Positions 17,865-64,000 of a DNA stretch of 64,000 nucleotides are shown piece by piece. Numbering within the stretch: the stretch's first letter is position 1; every line of letters starts with the position of its first letter. This stretch comes from Pelagibacterium sp. 26DY04. Its GTDB lineage: Bacteria > Pseudomonadota > Alphaproteobacteria > Rhizobiales > Devosiaceae. Under the pieces are notes generated by a model. It made no database searches. It was not told where the DNA came from and was given only the letters and a program-made list of their open reading frames with translations. The position numbers and the translations under genes were made by a program. Location of the stretch: the NCBI RefSeq assembly GCF_031202305.1, contig NZ_CP101731.1, forward strand, positions 1,674,001 to 1,738,000. The letters run 5' to 3'.

Positions 17865-18824
17865 TTGGACCAATCTCAGGAGACTGCCGTCGGCCGCAAT
17901 CTTACGCTCGAGATCGCCCGGATCACCGAGCGGGCGGCCATAGCGGCGGCGGGCTGGCGCGGCAAGGGTGACGAGATGGAGGCCGACCAGGCCGCCGTCA
18001 TCGCCATGCACAACGCGCTCAACGACATCGAGATCGAAGGCCAGGTGGTGATCGGCGAGGGCAGGGGGGCTCCGCTGCTGGCGCTGGGCGAAGGGGTCGG
18101 CAAGGGTCATGGGCCGCAGATCGATGTCGCCGTCGATCCGCTGGAAGGGGTTACGGGCTGCGCCAAGAACCTCGCCGATTCCCTTTCGGTCATGGCGTTT
18201 TCCGAACGCGGCGGGCTGCTGCGCGTGCCGGACGCCTATATGGAAAAGATCGCCATCGGGCCGGGCTATCCGCATGGCATCGTCGACCTCGACAAGTCGC
18301 CGGCGGAAAACATCACCGCCCTGGCCGAGGCCAAGGGCGTAGCGGTGTCCGATATCGTGGCGTGCCTGCTCGACCGGCCGCGTCACGCGGGGCTCATCGC
18401 CCAATTGCGTGAACTCGGGGTGGCGGTGAAGCTGCTGCCCGATGGGGACATCGCCGCCGTGATCCATGCGGCCAACAGTGACGATACCGGCATCGACATC
18501 TACCTGGGATCAGGCGGGGCGCCCGAGGGCGTGCTGGCGGCGGCGGCGATCCGCTGCATGGGCGGGCAGATGCAGGGACGGCTGATCCTCGATACGGCCG
18601 ACAAGAAGGCGGCGGCCCGCGAACTGGGGATCGGTGACGCCAAACTTTGCGCCGAGGACATGGTCCGCGGCAACGTGCTATTCGCTGCAACGGGGGTTAC
18701 CGACGGGAGTCTGTTGCGTGGCGTAAAGCTTTTGCCGCGCCGGGTCGTCACCTCGAGCGTGGTGATGCGCTCCTGGAGCCACACGATACGCTGGATTACC
18801 GCCGAGCATCGGCGGGAGAGTTAG
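17865..18824 (+). CDS. glpX: Class II fructose-1,6-bisphosphatase
   Basis: Gluconeogenic phosphatase converting fructose-1,6-bisphosphate to fructose-6-phosphate, 319 aa. Metal-site motifs are GKGDEMEADQAAV, VVIGEGRG and VAVDPLEGVTGCAKN, with GSGGAPEGVLAAAAI near the C-terminus, all typical of GlpX. The start is a TTG directly after the hom stop codon, with GAGGAG 7 nt upstream, so the two genes are translationally linked. The stop overlaps the convergent HPP gene by 4 bp. Confidence 0.95.
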   Translation: MDQSQETAVGRNLTLEIARITERAAIAAAGWRGKGDEMEADQAAVIAMHNALNDIEIEGQVVIGEGRGAPLLALGEGVGKGHGPQIDVAVDPLEGVTGCAKNLADSLSVMAFSERGGLLRVPDAYMEKIAIGPGYPHGIVDLDKSPAENITALAEAKGVAVSDIVACLLDRPRHAGLIAQLRELGVAVKLLPDGDIAAVIHAANSDDTGIDIYLGSGGAPEGVLAAAAIRCMGGQMQGRLILDTADKKAAARELGIGDAKLCAEDMVRGNVLFAATGVTDGSLLRGVKLLPRRVVTSSVVMRSWSHTIRWITAEHRRES

Positions 18825-19339
18825 CGTGAGGTCTGGTCGCTAAGCGGCAGAGGGTAGCGCTGGCGCGGCGGCAGGCGGTGCAGAACGACGCCCAGGCCCA
18901 CCAGCAGCGTGCAGGCGAAAAACAGCACTGCGAAAAGCGTGAGCGGATCGACCGGCGTGGCGTGAACCAGCAGCGGCACCGCCACCGCCGGCGGATGCGT
19001 CACCCGCAGCACGAGCATGACCAGCATCGCAAAGCCGACCCCGAGCGTCGCCAGCCACCACGAATCGGGCAGGATCCAAACGACAAGCACCGCAAAGATC
19101 GTGCCGATCAGATAGCCGGCGAAAATATTGATCGGCTGGGCGCCCGCCGAGGCCGGCTGGCCGAAGATCAGCATCGCGGTCGGCCCGAGCGGCGCCAGCA
19201 GCAGCGGCAGGCCGGTCTTGACCGACAGCCAGCCGATCAGCATCACCGCCAGCCCCGCGGCGAGGGCGGAGCGGAAATGAACGCGCCAATCCTTGCGCGG
19301 CTCGTGGCGGGCGATGTAGCGGGCAAAATGGGAACGCAT
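18821..19339 (-). CDS. HPP family integral membrane protein
   Basis: 172-aa membrane protein with four to five hydrophobic segments. It carries the family signature in RVTHPPAVAVPLL and the preceding LAPLGPTAMLIFGQPASAGAQPIN motif. HPP proteins are widespread; some cyanobacterial and plant members have been linked to nitrite transport, but the role here is unknown. The ATG at 19339 was chosen by homology-like topology; no good ribosome site is visible and the frame is open further upstream. First gene of the block that separates glpX from recJ. Confidence 0.82.
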   Translation of the reverse strand: MRSHFARYIARHEPRKDWRVHFRSALAAGLAVMLIGWLSVKTGLPLLLAPLGPTAMLIFGQPASAGAQPINIFAGYLIGTIFAVLVVWILPDSWWLATLGVGFAMLVMLVLRVTHPPAVAVPLLVHATPVDPLTLFAVLFFACTLLVGLGVVLHRLPPRQRYPLPLSDQTSR

Positions 19340-19462
19340 GCGTCGGCTTCTGAACGGAACGCCGGCGGTTTGCAGTGATTCGCCCCCGAGTGTAAGCATT
19401 TGTTGTGGGGGCGAACACATTGGCGCGCGAGCGTGGATTCTGGGTCGCGGTGGGGGAGGTCC

Positions 19463-20008
19463 ATGGACTCGAGCGTGGTGACATTGCGAGACGCTTCTGT
19501 TGCCGATGTCGGCGGCATTGCCGCCGTGCACGTCGCAGCGTGGAAAGAGACCTATACGGGGCTGGTGCCCGAGGGGATTCTGGCGGCTCTTTCTGTTGCG
19601 GATCGGGAGGCACGATGGAGGCGGATACTCGCAGATCCGCACGCGGGTGGAACCTCGGTTTGCGTCGCATGTGACGGCGAGCGCATCGTCGGCTTCGCAT
19701 CGTGCGGCGGCCAGCGCGACGCCGGTTTGAGGACTCTGGGCTTTGATGCCGAGATCAGCGCTCTCTACCTGCTGCAATCCCATCAGCGCCAGGGCATCGG
19801 CACGGCGATGATGCGGCACATGGCGGCCGAACTTGCCGGGCGGGACCATGCGGCGGCAGCCCTATGGGTGCTGCGCGAAAACCGCGCCGCACGAGCGTTT
19901 TACGCGCGGCTGGGCGGGGAGGTTGTGGGAGAGAGGGAGGAGGTTCGGCCAGAAGCCCGATTGATGGAATTGGCCTATGGGTGGCGGCGGCTCGGACACA
20001 TGGAATAG
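19463..20008 (+). CDS. GNAT family N-acetyltransferase
   Basis: 181-aa acetyl-CoA dependent acetyltransferase. The core shows VHVAAWKETYTGLVP near the N-terminus, EISALYLLQSHQRQGIGTAMM (the Q/RxxGxG/A acetyl-CoA loop at about residue 112) and ALWVLRENRAARAFYARLGG. Resembles the RimI-like/YjcF class of small-molecule or protein acetyltransferases. Start ATG at 19463 follows GGGGAGG with short spacing. The substrate is unknown; it is divergent from the HPP gene. Confidence 0.85.
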   Translation: MDSSVVTLRDASVADVGGIAAVHVAAWKETYTGLVPEGILAALSVADREARWRRILADPHAGGTSVCVACDGERIVGFASCGGQRDAGLRTLGFDAEISALYLLQSHQRQGIGTAMMRHMAAELAGRDHAAAALWVLRENRAARAFYARLGGEVVGEREEVRPEARLMELAYGWRRLGHME

Positions 20009-20074
20009 CCGAAGAGCAGGTCTTGGGTAGAGCACCTAAACGGCTCAAGCGGACGTTGCTCCTGCAAAGGTAAA

Positions 20075-20096
20075 GGAGGGTCGAGGGCGACCCTCC
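20075..20096. terminator. Hairpin between GNAT gene and small hydrophilic protein gene
   Basis: GGAGGGTCG and CGACCCTCC form a perfect 9-bp stem around AGGG. Read on the minus strand it follows the small-protein gene and is trailed by CCTTTACC, a weak U tract; on the plus strand there is none. It probably serves both convergent genes. Confidence 0.5.
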
Positions 20097-20110
20097 AAGG
20101 ACGCAGTTGA

Positions 20111-20266
20111 TCAGCGGCGCTGACCCCCTTTGTTGTCCTGCATTCCATCGCGGCCTTTGTTATCGTCGTCACGACCGCGGCCCTGCTGGGTTTCTTTGTC
20201 CTTCTGGCCTTGCTGGCCAGACCGACCGTTTTGTTCGTGGCTTCCACGCTTGTCCTGGTTGGCCAT
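20111..20266 (-). CDS. Small, highly hydrophilic protein (51 aa), probable stress protein
   Basis: 51-residue protein composed almost entirely of Gln, Gly, Asp, Lys, Arg and Asn, with no hydrophobic core (MANQDKRGSHEQNGR, then QGQKDKETQQGRGR). The composition is like intrinsically disordered, hydrophilin- or KGG-type stress proteins, although no KGG repeat is present. AAAGGAA lies 5 nt before the ATG. An EcfG-like promoter (GGAAC-N16-GGTT) starts about 45 nt upstream, and a hairpin follows the stop, so this is very likely a real gene despite its size. Confidence 0.72.
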   Translation of the reverse strand: MANQDKRGSHEQNGRSGQQGQKDKETQQGRGRDDDNKGRDGMQDNKGGQRR

Positions 20267-20316
20267 GTGCGTTCCTTTCAAGAACAATGCTGCCTATTTC
20301 GTGGGCAGCATAAATC

Positions 20317-20341
20317 AACCACGGTTCATCATCTTCGTTCC
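20317..20341 (-). promoter_or_regulatory. EcfG-like promoter of the small hydrophilic protein gene
   Basis: On the minus strand GGAAC (20341-20337) is followed after 16 bp by GGTT (20320-20317); the general-stress sigma factor consensus is GGAAC-N16/17-CGTT. One mismatch in the -10. Predicted leader is about 45 nt. Confidence 0.6.
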
Positions 20342-20420
20342 TTCAGGAAATCGCGAATAGACCTATGCTATACGGTATGTCTGTAAGCCGACCTATTTGT
20401 GCGGGTAGTGGGGTTTTCCA

Positions 20421-20452
20421 ATAAAAATGGCCGCCAGAGCTCGGGCGGCCAT
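20421..20452 (-). terminator. Terminator of the Ala/Gly-rich secreted protein gene
   Basis: ATGGCCGCC and GGCGGCCAT (20427-20435 and 20444-20452) form a 9-bp stem; on the minus strand it is followed by TTTTTAT. It lies about 30 nt past the stop at 20481. Confidence 0.88.
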
Positions 20453-20480
20453 CCCTCTCTGCTTGTGCTGGTTTTTCGCC

Positions 20481-20957
20481 TTATTCAACCAAGCCAGCGG
20501 CTTGGCAGTCTTCGAGGGTGATTGCCTCAAGATCGATCGAGGCTGCTGCATCTCCGGCGGCTGCGGCATCGCCGCCCGCGGCGGCTCCGTCAGCGGCCAT
20601 GTCATCACCCGCCGCGGCGTCCGCGGCCGTCTCGCCGACTGCTCCGGCGCCCGCCGCGGCATCGACTCCGCCAGCCGCCGCGCCTGCGTCTGCTCCTGCA
20701 TCGGCTCCAGCCTCGCCACCGGCTTCCGCTCCGGCGCCACCGGCAGCACCACCGTCGGCTCCAGCAGCAGCGTCGGCTTCGGCACCAGCGGCCGCGCCTT
20801 CTTCAGCGAGCATCGTGCAATGCTCGGTCACCACCGGCAGGTCTTCGTCACTGACCTGCTGATCGCCTACCATGGTCTGGGCAAAGGATGCGGAACTCAG
20901 GGCCAGAGTGGCGGCTGCCGCAAGTGCGATAGGTGAGACAAGAGATTTGATGGTCAT
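20481..20957 (-). CDS. Secreted Ala/Gly/Asp-rich low-complexity protein
   Basis: 158-aa exported protein. A signal peptide (MTIKSLVSPIALAAAATLALSSASFAQ) is followed by a short ordered segment with one Cys (VVTEHCTMLAEEG), about 85 residues of imperfect Ala/Gly/Asp/Glu repeats, and a C-terminal segment with a second Cys (LEDCQAAGLVE). The two Cys could form a disulfide closing the flexible loop. ATG at 20957 has GAGGAGG upstream. An EcfG-like promoter (21005-21029) and a strong terminator flank it. No known function; composition suggests a disordered envelope protein made in stress. Confidence 0.78.
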   Translation of the reverse strand: MTIKSLVSPIALAAAATLALSSASFAQTMVGDQQVSDEDLPVVTEHCTMLAEEGAAAGAEADAAAGADGGAAGGAGAEAGGEAGADAGADAGAAAGGVDAAAGAGAVGETAADAAAGDDMAADGAAAGGDAAAAGDAAASIDLEAITLEDCQAAGLVE

Positions 20958-21004
20958 GTCGTTCCTCCTCGAACGGTTTGCCATGAGCTTTGCGCTCGAC
21001 CATT

Positions 21005-21029
21005 AACTTTTCGGCAGGAATGACGTTCC
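21005..21029 (-). promoter_or_regulatory. EcfG-like promoter of the Ala/Gly-rich protein gene
   Basis: Minus strand GGAAC (21029-21025), 16 bp, then AGTT (21008-21005): one mismatch to the -10 CGTT of the general-stress consensus. It lies about 50 nt before the ATG at 20957. Confidence 0.55.
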
Positions 21030-21154
21030 GGCAGGACCCGAGGCCGCTAACACGCGATAGGACGCGAGGGGCCGGTGCCCGGCGACGGCGGGCAGGAGCG
21101 CCGGCACTGGCGGTGATGCCGATGATCTTCGGGGTAGCTTCGCCCTGCGCGAAC

Positions 21155-21700
21155 CTATGGCGTTTGCACTCCCAGCACTTCCCGCGCCCGCTCTTCGGCG
21201 TTGTCGCCGGCGGCGGTGATTTCGGCTTCGGATTGGCCCAGGGCGCGGGCGGCCTGTTCGGCGGCGTTGCGGACGTTGGCGACGATTTCGAGCTTTTGGG
21301 ATTTGGTCATGTTCTCGTCGCGCAGCTCGGCGGCGCTGGCGACCAGGGCGTCGATCTGGACTTCGAGCGCATTGGTGGTGGAGGTGATGCCTTCGCTCAG
21401 CGCATTCATGGCGTCGTCGCCGAGCTGCATGAGGTTATCGCCCGCCTGCTCAGTGTCTTCCATGATGGTTTCGAAGGTCTGCTGCGCGTCCTGCTCGATC
21501 TCTTCGCGGCGCTGCTGGAGTTCTGCGGGCGACATGACCTCCTCGCTCGTGGGCTCCTCGTTTTCCTCGGCCGGTTCGGCAAAGGCTTCCGGATCGCCGG
21601 CATCGGGATTGGGAACGTCGGGCGCGCCGGCGCGCTCCTCGCAGGCGGCAAGGGCAAGGGCCGAAATCAGGGCAAAGGGCAAAAGCAGTTTAGCGGTCAT
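21155..21700 (-). CDS. Acidic lipoprotein with helical C-terminal region
   Basis: 181-aa exported lipoprotein. Signal sequence MTAKLLLPFALISALALAAC with lipobox LAAC at about residue 20, an acidic Pro/Glu-rich linker (about 21-60), then a long Glu/Gln/Ala-rich region likely to be helical or coiled coil (LQQRREEIEQDAQQTFE and NVRNAAEQAARALG). The ATG at 21700 has GAGGG 8 nt upstream. A perfect EcfG promoter lies 48-72 nt upstream. The function is unknown; it resembles periplasmic helical stress or apolipoprotein-like proteins in composition only. Confidence 0.82.
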   Translation of the reverse strand: MTAKLLLPFALISALALAACEERAGAPDVPNPDAGDPEAFAEPAEENEEPTSEEVMSPAELQQRREEIEQDAQQTFETIMEDTEQAGDNLMQLGDDAMNALSEGITSTTNALEVQIDALVASAAELRDENMTKSQKLEIVANVRNAAEQAARALGQSEAEITAAGDNAEERAREVLGVQTP

Positions 21701-21747
21701 GGTCAATCCCTCGAACAATAAACGGGCGGTCTTGTGCCCTTGATAGA

Positions 21748-21772
21748 AACGGTCAGCCCGGATCGATGTTCC
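21748..21772 (-). promoter_or_regulatory. EcfG-type general stress promoter (perfect consensus)
   Basis: Minus strand GGAAC (21772-21768), exactly 16 bp, then CGTT (21751-21748). This matches the alphaproteobacterial general-stress sigma consensus fully. Predicted start near 21740 gives a leader of about 40 nt to the lipoprotein ATG at 21700. Confidence 0.82.
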
Positions 21773-21889: not shown

Positions 21890-23680
21890 ATGATGCCCAC
21901 GATCCCAGCCTTTCTCAACGTTGAAAGATCGGTCTGCGGCCGGCGATGGCTCGACAGGCTCGACCCCGCCGCCGCCCGCATGGCGGGCGCCATCAGCCAG
22001 CAGACGGGGTTATCGGAAATCCTGGCGCGGATCGTGGCCGGACGCGGCGTGGCGGTGGAGGCGGCGGAAGACTTCATCACCCCCACCATACGCGCGCTGA
22101 TGCCCGACCCTTCAACGCTGGCCGACATGGACGCGCTGGCCGCAAGGCTGGCCGACGCCATCGAGAGGCGGGAGACGGTCGGGCTGTTCGGGGACTATGA
22201 TGTCGATGGCGCCTGTTCCGTCGCGCTGATGGTGCGCTATCTGCGCCATTTCGGGCTCAACCCGCCCACCCATATCCCGGACCGCATATTCGAGGGTTAC
22301 GGGCCCAACAATGCAGCGATCGACGGGCTGATCGAGCAGGGCGCCACCCTGGTGATGACGCTCGACTGTGGCACGGCCAGCCACGGTCCGATCGCCCATG
22401 CGCGAGGGCGCGGGGTGGACGTGCTGATCGTCGACCATCACCTGGCGCCCGACGAGTTGCCCAACGCAAACGCGCTGGTCAATCCCAACCGCCGCGACGA
22501 CATATCCGGGCTCGGCTATCTGTGCGCGACGGGCGTGGCGTTCATGGTGCTGGTCGCCACCAGCCGCATCCTGCGCGAGCGCGGGCAGGGCGGCCTCCCC
22601 GACCTGATGAAATGGCTGGACCTCGTGGCATTGGCGACGGTGTGCGACGTGGTGCCCCTAAAGGGGCTCAACCGGGCCTTCGTGGTGCGCGGCATAGAAG
22701 TGATGCGGGCCGGCGGCAATGTGGGGCTTTCGAGCCTTGCCATCGCGGCGCGGGTTTCGGGGCCGGTCAATGCCTACCATCTCGGTTTCCTGCTCGGGCC
22801 GCGGATCAATGCCGGCGGGCGGATCGGGGATGCGGGACTGGGCGCGCGGCTCCTGGCCGGCGACGATGAATATGAGGCGCTGGCGATCGCCCAGCGGCTC
22901 GACGAACTCAACGCCGAACGGCAGCGGATAGAAGTTGCGGCGGTGGAACAGGCCGTGGCTGCGGCCGAACTCGAGATCGGCGAAGGGCCGGGGCCCTCGG
23001 TGCTGGTGACCGCATCCTCGGAATGGCACCAGGGAATTGTGGGGCTCGTTGCTGCCCGGCTCAAGGAACGGTTCGACCGGCCCGCCTTTGCCATTGCGCT
23101 CGGCCCCGATGGCGGTGGGACGGGATCGGGGCGCTCGGTGCCGCGGGTGGATTTGGGTGCGGCGGTGGTCGATGCGGTGCGCGGCGGGATCATCACCAAG
23201 GGTGGCGGGCATGCCATGGCGGCGGGCGTGACCCTCGGGCCGGGGCAGTTGGGGCCGTTTCGGGCCTATCTCAACGACACGCTGGCCGACGATGTGATGG
23301 CAGCCAAGGCCGGGGATGGGATCAAGATCGACGCGGCGCTGACGGCGCGGGGTGCCCATCCCGATTTCGTGCATGAGTTCGAGCGCGCCGGGCCATTCGG
23401 GGCGGGCAATCCCACGCCGGTCTTTGCCTTTCCCGCCCACCAGATCCGCTTCGCCGACGTGGTGGGAGCGGGCGGACATGTGCGCTGCACGGTGAGTTCG
23501 GGGGATGGGGCCAATCTGAAGGCCATCGCCTTCCGCGCGGCGGGGAGCCCGCTGGGCGATGCGCTGCTCAAGGCGCGGGACGGGCAGCGGCTGCATGTCG
23601 CCGGCACGCTCAATATCGACCACTGGCAGGGACGCGAAACCGTGCAACTGCGGATCATCGACGCGGCGGTGCCGGGATAG
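21890..23680 (+). CDS. recJ: Single-stranded-DNA-specific exonuclease RecJ
   Basis: 5'-3' exonuclease acting in recombination and mismatch repair, 596 aa. DHH-superfamily motifs are visible in order: GDYDVDGACSVALM (motif I, about residue 100), TLDCG (motif II), VDHHLAP (motif III, DHH, about 182), and the DHHA1-type GGRIGDAG and GGHAMAAG glycine loops. Two adjacent ATGs (21890, 21893) are possible starts. In many Rhizobiales recJ directly follows hom-glpX; here about 3 kb of accessory genes intervene. Confidence 0.95.
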   Translation: MMPTIPAFLNVERSVCGRRWLDRLDPAAARMAGAISQQTGLSEILARIVAGRGVAVEAAEDFITPTIRALMPDPSTLADMDALAARLADAIERRETVGLFGDYDVDGACSVALMVRYLRHFGLNPPTHIPDRIFEGYGPNNAAIDGLIEQGATLVMTLDCGTASHGPIAHARGRGVDVLIVDHHLAPDELPNANALVNPNRRDDISGLGYLCATGVAFMVLVATSRILRERGQGGLPDLMKWLDLVALATVCDVVPLKGLNRAFVVRGIEVMRAGGNVGLSSLAIAARVSGPVNAYHLGFLLGPRINAGGRIGDAGLGARLLAGDDEYEALAIAQRLDELNAERQRIEVAAVEQAVAAAELEIGEGPGPSVLVTASSEWHQGIVGLVAARLKERFDRPAFAIALGPDGGGTGSGRSVPRVDLGAAVVDAVRGGIITKGGGHAMAAGVTLGPGQLGPFRAYLNDTLADDVMAAKAGDGIKIDAALTARGAHPDFVHEFERAGPFGAGNPTPVFAFPAHQIRFADVVGAGGHVRCTVSSGDGANLKAIAFRAAGSPLGDALLKARDGQRLHVAGTLNIDHWQGRETVQLRIIDAAVPG

Positions 23681-35608: not shown

Positions 35609-36106
35609 TTATTCGAGGCCGAACATCTGGCGTGCGGTGGCTTCGGCCTGATCGCCCACCTGGGTCACCATCTCGTCGGCCAGGCCCTGCTGACGGGCTG
35701 CCTCTTCGGCGGTGGTGCGGGCCTGTTCGACAGCCTGCTCTTTCTGCTCGTCGGTCATCGAATCGATCTGGGTCTGAAGCTGTTCCTGGGCCTCGGGCGT
35801 GAGCATCTGCATGGCCTGGTTGGCCATGGAATCAGCGCTGGGCGCAGCAGCGGCCGGAGTGGTGGTCTCTTCGGCAGCAGGCTCGGCGTCAGCCTCAGGC
35901 TCGGCATCGGCCGGAGCCGGATCTTCGGTCGTCTCGGTTTCGGCCGGTGCAGGTGTTTCGGCCGGCTCGGCGGGGGCGGATTCGGCGGGAGCCTCCACGG
36001 CTGCCGGTTCGGTGGTTTCGGCGGCGGCATCACTGCCTTCGTTGCTGCAGCCGGCCAAAGCAATCAAGGACGCAATGGCAATAGGAGCAAAGTAAGATTT
36101 CATCAT
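35609..36106 (-). CDS. Acidic Ala/Glu/Pro-rich lipoprotein
   Basis: 165-aa lipoprotein. Signal MMKSYFAPIAIASLIALAGC with lipobox LAGC at residue 20, a low-complexity linker of Glu/Ala/Pro/Thr (about 25-90) and a helical C-terminal region (MTDEQKEQAVEQARTTAEEAARQQG). The architecture parallels the lipoprotein at 21155-21700, with lipid anchor, acidic spacer and amphipathic helix, though no EcfG promoter is seen here. ATG at 36106 has GAGGG 6 nt upstream. Function unknown. Confidence 0.8.
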   Translation of the reverse strand: MMKSYFAPIAIASLIALAGCSNEGSDAAAETTEPAAVEAPAESAPAEPAETPAPAETETTEDPAPADAEPEADAEPAAEETTTPAAAAPSADSMANQAMQMLTPEAQEQLQTQIDSMTDEQKEQAVEQARTTAEEAARQQGLADEMVTQVGDQAEATARQMFGLE

Positions 36107-63046: not shown

Positions 63047-64000
63047 ATGACAACGAACACAGAAACTTCCGTCTCGATCCGCAACCTGTCTCTCAACTTC
63101 GGAGCCGTCCAGGTTCTCCAGGAGATGAACCTCGACATCAAGCAGGGCGAATTCTTGGTGCTGCTCGGCCCGTCAGGGTGCGGGAAGTCGACGCTGCTCA
63201 ACTGCATCGCAGGACTGCTCGACGTTTCGGGTGGACAAATCTTCATCTCGGGCAAGAACGTCACCTGGGAAGAGCCCAAGAACCGGGGCATCGGCATGGT
63301 GTTCCAGTCCTATGCGCTTTATCCGCAGATGAGCGTAAAGAAGAACCTCTCGTTCGGGCTGCGGGTTGCGGGACTGCCTCGGGACGAGATCGAGAGGCGG
63401 GTCCAACGCGCTTCTGAGATGCTCCAGATCGAGCCGCTGCTCGAGCGCAAGCCTGCCAATCTTTCAGGTGGCCAGCGCCAGCGCGTGGCGATCGGGCGGG
63501 CGCTGGTGCGGGACGTGGACGTGTTCCTATTCGACGAACCACTGTCGAACCTCGACGCCAAGCTTCGTTCAGACTTGCGAGTTGAGATCAAGCGACTGCA
63601 CCAGCGGCTTGAAAACACCATGATCTACGTGACTCACGACCAGATCGAGGCGATGACGCTGGCTGATCGTATCGCGATCATGCGTGACGGTATCATCCAG
63701 CAGCTCGATACGCCGCACGAAATCTACAATCGGCCGGTCAATCTGTTCGTCGCCGGCTTTATCGGTTCACCATCGATGAATTTCATCAATGGCGAGTTGA
63801 GCGGCGGCACCGTTACCGCCGACGGCGTGACAATGCCAGTCGAGCGCTATGGCTTCGAACCGGGCAACGAGAATCTCAAGGCGAAAGTCGTCCTCGGTAT
63901 TCGGCCTGAACATGTGGTCGTCGGGGATGCGGCGGTCAGCCAGCCGGTGAGCTTTGATACCGAAATCGAGATCGTCGAGCCCATGGGCTCGGACACCATC
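63047..64000 (+). CDS. Sugar ABC transporter ATP-binding protein (UgpC/MalK/MsmK-like), partial
   Basis: The frame opens at an ATG 6 nt after the permease stop and runs past the right edge (318 codons, no stop). Walker [17 protein letters not shown] (about residue 38), Q-loop VFQSYALYPQMSV, signature [15 protein letters not shown], Walker B VFLFDEPLSNLDAKLR and H-loop YVTHDQIEAMTLADRI. The C-terminal TOBE/regulatory domain starts at NFINGELSGG and includes VLGIRPEHV. It energises the CUT1 permeases; the tail is missing. Confidence 0.95.
   Translation, partial: MTTNTETSVSIRNLSLNFGAVQVLQEMNLDIKQGEFLVLLGPSGCGKSTLLNCIAGLLDVSGGQIFISGKNVTWEEPKNRGIGMVFQSYALYPQMSVKKNLSFGLRVAGLPRDEIERRVQRASEMLQIEPLLERKPANLSGGQRQRVAIGRALVRDVDVFLFDEPLSNLDAKLRSDLRVEIKRLHQRLENTMIYVTHDQIEAMTLADRIAIMRDGIIQQLDTPHEIYNRPVNLFVAGFIGSPSMNFINGELSGGTVTADGVTMPVERYGFEPGNENLKAKVVLGIRPEHVVVGDAAVSQPVSFDTEIEIVEPMGSDTI

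Follow-up and report, generated by a model that had tools for sequence, protein, structure and literature searches.

The window, which is the whole stretch of 64,000 nucleotides analysed here, comes from the genome of Pelagibacterium sp. 26DY04 (3.89 Mb, one contig). Next to recJ it carries three adjacent minus-strand genes, encoding an acidic lipoprotein, an Ala/Gly-rich secreted protein and a very hydrophilic small protein of 181, 158 and 51 aa, respectively, as counted from the ATGs at 21700, 20957 and 20266, although longer alternative starts exist. A pattern scan of the window placed one GGAAC-N16-NGTT element before each gene on the same strand (Table 1), with the end of the element 47 nt from the ATG of the lipoprotein gene, 47 nt from that of the Ala/Gly gene and 50 nt from that of the 51-aa gene. 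A sequence-only reading of this DNA had described these three elements, with the full CGTT consensus before the lipoprotein gene and one -10 mismatch before each of the other two (GGTT and AGTT), and had seen no recognised domain in the proteins. The scan recovered the same positions and the same boxes, and none of the three proteins matched a Pfam or NCBIfam model above its curated cut-off.

Table 1. Genes, promoter elements and hairpins at the locus (window coordinates)
Feature	Coordinates	Strand	Evidence
EcfG-type promoter element of the lipoprotein gene, GGAAC-N16-CGTT	21748..21772	-	pattern scan, matrix rank 1, conservation
181-aa acidic lipoprotein, lipobox LAAC, divergent from recJ	21155..21700	-	open frame, alignment, structure model
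recJ, conserved neighbour of the lipoprotein gene	21890..23680	+	TIGR00644 over cut-off
EcfG-type promoter element of the Ala/Gly gene, GGAAC-N16-AGTT	21005..21029	-	pattern scan, matrix rank 3, family conservation
158-aa secreted protein: signal peptide, Cys47 block, Ala/Gly spacer, Cys151 block	20481..20957	-	alignment A2
Hairpin and T run 3′ of the Ala/Gly gene, likely terminator	20423..20456	-	folding, z -3.07
EcfG-type promoter element of the 51-aa gene, GGAAC-N16-GGTT	20317..20341	-	pattern scan, family conservation
51-aa very hydrophilic protein, worn member of the GGTHEQHVKAGQQSHKN repeat family	20111..20266	-	profile and sequence comparison
Hairpin 3′ of the 51-aa gene, likely terminator	20075..20096	-	terminator scan; folding, z -4.28

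The window holds 8 matches to GGAAC-N16/17-NGTT versus 2.8 expected. With the spacer restricted to N16 there are 6, where shuffling gives a mean of 1.2. Of 200 shuffled windows, none had three N16 sites on the same strand within 1.5 kb. The remaining five matches to GGAAC-N16/17-NGTT are located inside open frames of 320-736 codons on either strand. Across the genome, the full consensus GGAAC/CGTT had 81 matches versus 80 for the reversed pattern, and was thus not enriched. Since there is no such enrichment, the motif alone is little proof of a promoter, and conservation of the element before related genes is the decisive test.

In other alphaproteobacteria, the general stress response is switched on when phosphorylated PhyR, formed under stress, removes NepR from the sigma factor EcfG. 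The genes for phyR, nepR and an ECF sigma factor are clustered in the same genome near C1:2,658,000-2,660,000, with NepR scoring above its Pfam cut-off, PhyR above its NCBIfam cut-off and the sigma factor above the NF009199 cut-off; the sigma factor was called EcfG from its position behind nepR. nepR was found in 13 of 13 genomes of the genus, GGAAC-N16/17-CGTT recurs at the nepR-phyR loci across the genus, and full-consensus elements also surround the switch genes of the genome studied here. A weight matrix was built from 41 distinct sites of the nepR-phyR loci of the genus, none of which came from the three genes, and was used to rank the roughly 128,000 window positions. The lipoprotein site came 1st, the Ala/Gly site 3rd and the 51-aa site 148th, in a ranking that penalises variant boxes because the training sites had been picked by exact GGAAC and CGTT. 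The second-best site, GGAAG-N16-CATT at 63070 on the minus strand, falls within a 320-codon open frame of the opposite strand and is probably a chance match. Near the nepR-phyR locus of the same genome there is also a PRC-barrel protein (PF05239) with a long Ala-rich repeat stretch (L070, 10278-11579, minus strand), and a full-consensus element was observed about 95 nt before the start of that gene (C1:2662675, minus strand).

The lipoprotein gene was present in all 13 genomes of the genus, adjoining recJ in divergent orientation in the window as well as in all 12 relatives. Among named proteins, those most similar to the lipoprotein come from Pelagibacterium. Upstream of it, GGAAC-N16/17-CGTT was found in 9 of the 13 genomes and was absent in 4, compared to a mean of 0.03 and a maximum of 1 for shuffled upstream regions; elsewhere in the 17-19-kb stretches around the gene in the 12 relatives, GGAAC-N16/17-NGTT occurred 7 times in all. 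When G(G/C)AAC was allowed, the element was seen in 9 of 11 distinct upstream regions of the genus, two of them with the element far off, at 108 and 114 nt. More distant homologues were taken from the bacterial family, which we take to be Devosiaceae, the relatives presumably bearing the genus name Devosia. These comprised 17 loci (L093-L109), of which 15 were scanned, as no lipobox frame could be read in L103 and L105; the element was found in none of their 14 distinct upstream regions, and recJ was not found in the stretches around the 17 loci.

The 181-aa protein has a signal peptide and a lipobox cysteine, as predicted from its sequence, and lipobox residues L17, A19 and C20 are invariant in a 34-row alignment of the family. 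The structure model, with a mean pLDDT of 72.6 and a pTM of 0.42, predicts a helix at residues 58-125, C-terminal helices at 133-153 and 158-176, and a disordered acidic linker. A Foldseek search with this model returned no solved fold at E <= 0.001. A second lipoprotein of the same family is encoded in the window at 35609-36106 on the minus strand (E 4.2e-10 with profile A1), with no GGAAC element in the upstream stretch read.

Relatives of the Ala/Gly protein were searched for with a profile of shorter relatives. Of 136 genomes of the bacterial family, 93 were found to encode such a protein, and the genome carrying the window gave four matches. Among 19 aligned proteins, Cys47 and Cys151 are invariant, one in each kept block, and the Ala/Gly stretch is, as judged from this alignment, a spacer between the two cysteine blocks. 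A motif restricted to GGAAC proved too narrow for these genes, as it was found at 0 of 30 family loci and, when the genus was searched, before none of 10 other copies, and the matrix scan revealed GCAAC-N16-CGTT at a steady distance before the genes of the family. The upstream set comprised 35 loci, 30 of them being the best-scoring matches of the family; L172 had no start and L165 repeated L164, leaving 33. With the wider pattern G(G/C)AAC-N16/17-NGTT, which was adopted after the matrix scan of the same data, GCAAC being already published for EcfG-dependent promoters, the element was found in 23 of these 33 distinct upstream regions (22 of 32 without the gene in the window), at 47-60 nt with a mean of 52. 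The 23 were the gene in the window, 5 of 12 from other genomes of the genus and 17 of 19 from outside the genus, and the two misses outside the genus have GCAAC-N16-CATT instead, at 50 and 51 nt. As controls, shuffled regions gave a mean of 0.34 and a maximum of 3, the reversed pattern was found in 3 of 33 regions and the wider pattern itself in 0 of 33 stretches further upstream, while the rest of the Ala/Gly loci contained 5 sites per 188,000 strand positions. The AGTT box of the window also occurs in the genus relatives L150 and L154 (N16) and L153 (N17). Within the genome carrying the window, one of four Ala/Gly copies has the element, the other three (L195, L196 and L155) being without it.

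The 51-aa protein contains 19.6% Gly, has a GRAVY of -2.59, and 69% of its residues are D, E, K, R, Q, N or H. Hydrophilins are a class defined by composition, with high Gly content and hydrophilicity, and the protein has such a composition, which is silent on ancestry. It gave no Pfam match at E values up to 1, and a protein search with it returned no homologue. A whole-genome search identified a 59-aa homologue in another genus of the bacterial family (G129, E 5.4e-4, a single-sequence match), and that gene has GGAAC-N16-GGTT 47 nt before its ATG. The profile of these two proteins led to a family of small proteins, which we name here the GGTHEQHVKAGQQSHKN repeat family; among 397 genomes of the order, 21 encode it, and many of its members have two copies of GG(T/S)HEQHVKAGQQSHKN. 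In some members a KGG repeat stands beside one GGTHEQHVKAGQQSHKN copy, and PF10685 scored over its cut-off in 3 of 6 scanned; the members without a KGG repeat, among those scanned, matched nothing in Pfam and, in NCBIfam, nothing over the cut-off. The 51-aa protein matched the 16-row profile of the family (A4) with an E value of 5.7e-10, the window protein being itself one of the rows, and from this comparison it is a worn member of the family. The family was present in 1 of 385 genomes of a class-wide sample (the one carrying the window) and in 12 of 398 of a phylum-wide sample, and so appears patchy, with the reservation that the samples differ. A literature search on two fragments of the repeat found no paper.

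The promoter element recurs in this family as well. The set from the order consisted of 26 rows representing 22 genes, L132 and L135 being second matches in genes already counted and L124 and L136 having no readable frame. Eleven of these 22 genes had GGAAC-N16-NGTT within 130 nt, compared to a shuffle mean of 0.05 and a maximum of 1. A second, plasmid-borne set consisted of 15 of 28 matching records, near-identical ones having been dropped by eye, and GGAAC-N16/17-NGTT was found in 11 of the 15, at 46-61 nt before the ATG. In the combined set, including the gene in the window and excluding the plasmid loci L186, L187 and L191, which have no proper start but were counted among the 15, the element was present in 22 of 34 genes, with GGTT in 16, TGTT in 4 and CGTT in 2. 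Two of the genes lacking it (L115 and L116) are located immediately behind a KGG-repeat gene.

Many relatives thus retain the element about as far from the start codon, which makes the three elements look like real EcfG-type promoters, and together with the presence of the switch genes this bears out the EcfG-type promoter reading made from the sequence earlier. Being related, the genomes compared are not independent samples, and the shuffle controls therefore lend each count more weight than it deserves, an effect tempered by the plasmid-borne second set and by the different bacterial genera involved. The boxes also fit what has been described elsewhere. In the portion of a Sphingopyxis granuli study available (PMC7083833), GCAAC and GGAAC are the two -35 boxes found most often at EcfG-dependent promoters, and the frequent -10 boxes include GGTT, TGTT and CATT; likewise, GGTT and AGTT appear in a table of EcfG-dependent genes within the accessible part of a Sphingomonas melonis study (PMC6599016). 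Shared with the EcfG (ECF15) regulon are the genes for PhyR, NepR and the sigma factor, as well as GGAAC or GCAAC followed after 16-17 nt by CGTT or known -10 variants. As a difference, two of the three -10 boxes here are not CGTT. We therefore consider it likely that the three genes are separate targets of EcfG, the sigma factor of the general stress response.

The elements could instead be read by a different ECF sigma factor of this cell, as related -35 boxes are used by such factors, an example in the excerpted text of PMC8103513 being the GGAACTT box of an E. coli RpoE target. We regard this as improbable, since the matrix derived from the nepR-phyR loci picks out two of the three, those of the lipoprotein and Ala/Gly genes, among the window positions, and since the element was found in 0 of 4 members of the GGTHEQHVKAGQQSHKN family outside the class, which is a small sample. 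About equally low is the probability we assign to one or two elements, most likely those of the Ala/Gly or 51-aa gene, being non-functional relics or chance matches in this strain. This could be argued from the -10 mismatch in both boxes, given that in vitro transcription in Sphingopyxis was reduced when CGTT was changed to CATT or TGTT, according to the available portion of that work (PMC7083833), from the lack of the element before most Ala/Gly copies of the same genome, and from the worn state of the 51-aa protein compared to its family. However, AGTT recurs in the three genus relatives L150, L153 and L154, GGTT is the commonest -10 box of the GGTHEQHVKAGQQSHKN family, and the distances are kept.

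If the three genes are EcfG targets, they appear to be separate ones. The order hom - glpX - lipoprotein - recJ was observed in 10 of 12 relatives, glpX not being found in the stretch in G004 and G011. In the window, four extra genes lie between glpX and the lipoprotein gene, namely an HPP gene and a GNAT gene (both by Pfam), the 51-aa gene and the Ala/Gly gene, and none of the four was found at that position in the 12 relatives. The interval from glpX to the lipoprotein gene (18821-20957) has variable content in the genus, with other genes or no genes in the relatives, and G007 carries a different insert at this site, with an open frame that looks helicase-like by eye.

The earlier inference that the three genes form one stress unit is not supported by this comparison: neither the 51-aa gene nor the Ala/Gly gene was present in the 17-19-kb stretch around the lipoprotein gene in any of the 12 other genomes of the genus, so that the trio next to recJ was found in 0 of 12. 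The 51-aa gene occurs in 1 of 13 genomes of the genus, and the relatives of the Ala/Gly gene sit elsewhere. The three genes are thus not supported as one conserved unit and would be separate arrivals, with the lipoprotein gene alone probably old at the recJ site and the other two probably later. The Ala/Gly hairpin, which is missing from the terminator-scan list, folds at -23.7 kcal/mol over a 66-nt stretch, and with a hairpin after the Ala/Gly gene and another after the 51-aa gene, at least the 51-aa gene probably forms its own transcript. Three elements within 1.5 kb on one strand at nearly equal distances from the ATG, and an interval without clear hairpin (z 0.13) that would let transcription run from the lipoprotein gene into the Ala/Gly gene, are what one co-acting stress module inherited together would have in its favour, but the absence of two of the genes near recJ in all relatives, the single occurrence of the 51-aa gene in the genus and the likely terminator between it and the Ala/Gly gene make this the least probable of the alternatives, and a very unlikely one.

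With EcfG acting on each gene separately, RNA polymerase carrying the released sigma factor would initiate just past each element, about 40 nt before the start codons, as suggested by the element positions. From the features of the proteins, we infer different places of action and a protective function. The lipoprotein would be a lipid-anchored envelope protein, its disordered acidic linker and helices perhaps serving as a spacer or brace; the Ala/Gly protein would be secreted, with a flexible spacer bearing its two cysteine blocks; and the 51-aa protein would be small, probably disordered, cytoplasmic and allied to the KGG proteins, probably protecting against drying or salt.

A considerable share of EcfG-regulated genes in Sphingomonas melonis has no known function, as stated in the accessible part of that study (PMC6599016), and a literature search found no paper on Pelagibacterium and the general stress response. 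The kept promoter position links three gene families of unknown function to this response from sequence, and makes two of them testable. Neither the Ala/Gly family nor the 51-aa family has a Pfam or NCBIfam model of its own among the members scanned. On balance, we lean towards the view that two undescribed families, one of GGTHEQHVKAGQQSHKN repeat proteins and one of two-cysteine secreted proteins, are linked to EcfG through a near-fixed promoter distance. The former would be a counterpart, in alphaproteobacteria, of the KGG proteins under RpoS, its family-typical GGTT box setting strength or timing. The latter would act in the periplasm under stress in Pelagibacterium and its bacterial family, and would consist of two cysteine blocks on a fast-evolving spacer. 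The KGG proteins of enterobacteria (PF10685; YciG, YmdF and SEN1538) are driven by the stress sigma factor RpoS, as given in an excerpt of PMC7161692. Similar to them, the relatives of the 51-aa protein are small and hydrophilic with Gly-rich repeats, whereas the GGTHEQHVKAGQQSHKN repeat differs from KGG and the promoter here is of the EcfG type and not that of RpoS. The 51-aa family may thus form a link between the enterobacterial KGG stress proteins and the alphaproteobacterial response, with small hydrophilic proteins of one kind perhaps being under the control of stress sigma factors that are unrelated to each other. As a separate observation on the genomic neighbourhood of this family, in 3 of 4 Agrobacterium plasmid records (L182, L183 and L194) the annotation places a DUF3175 gene immediately ahead of the GGTHEQHVKAGQQSHKN family gene.
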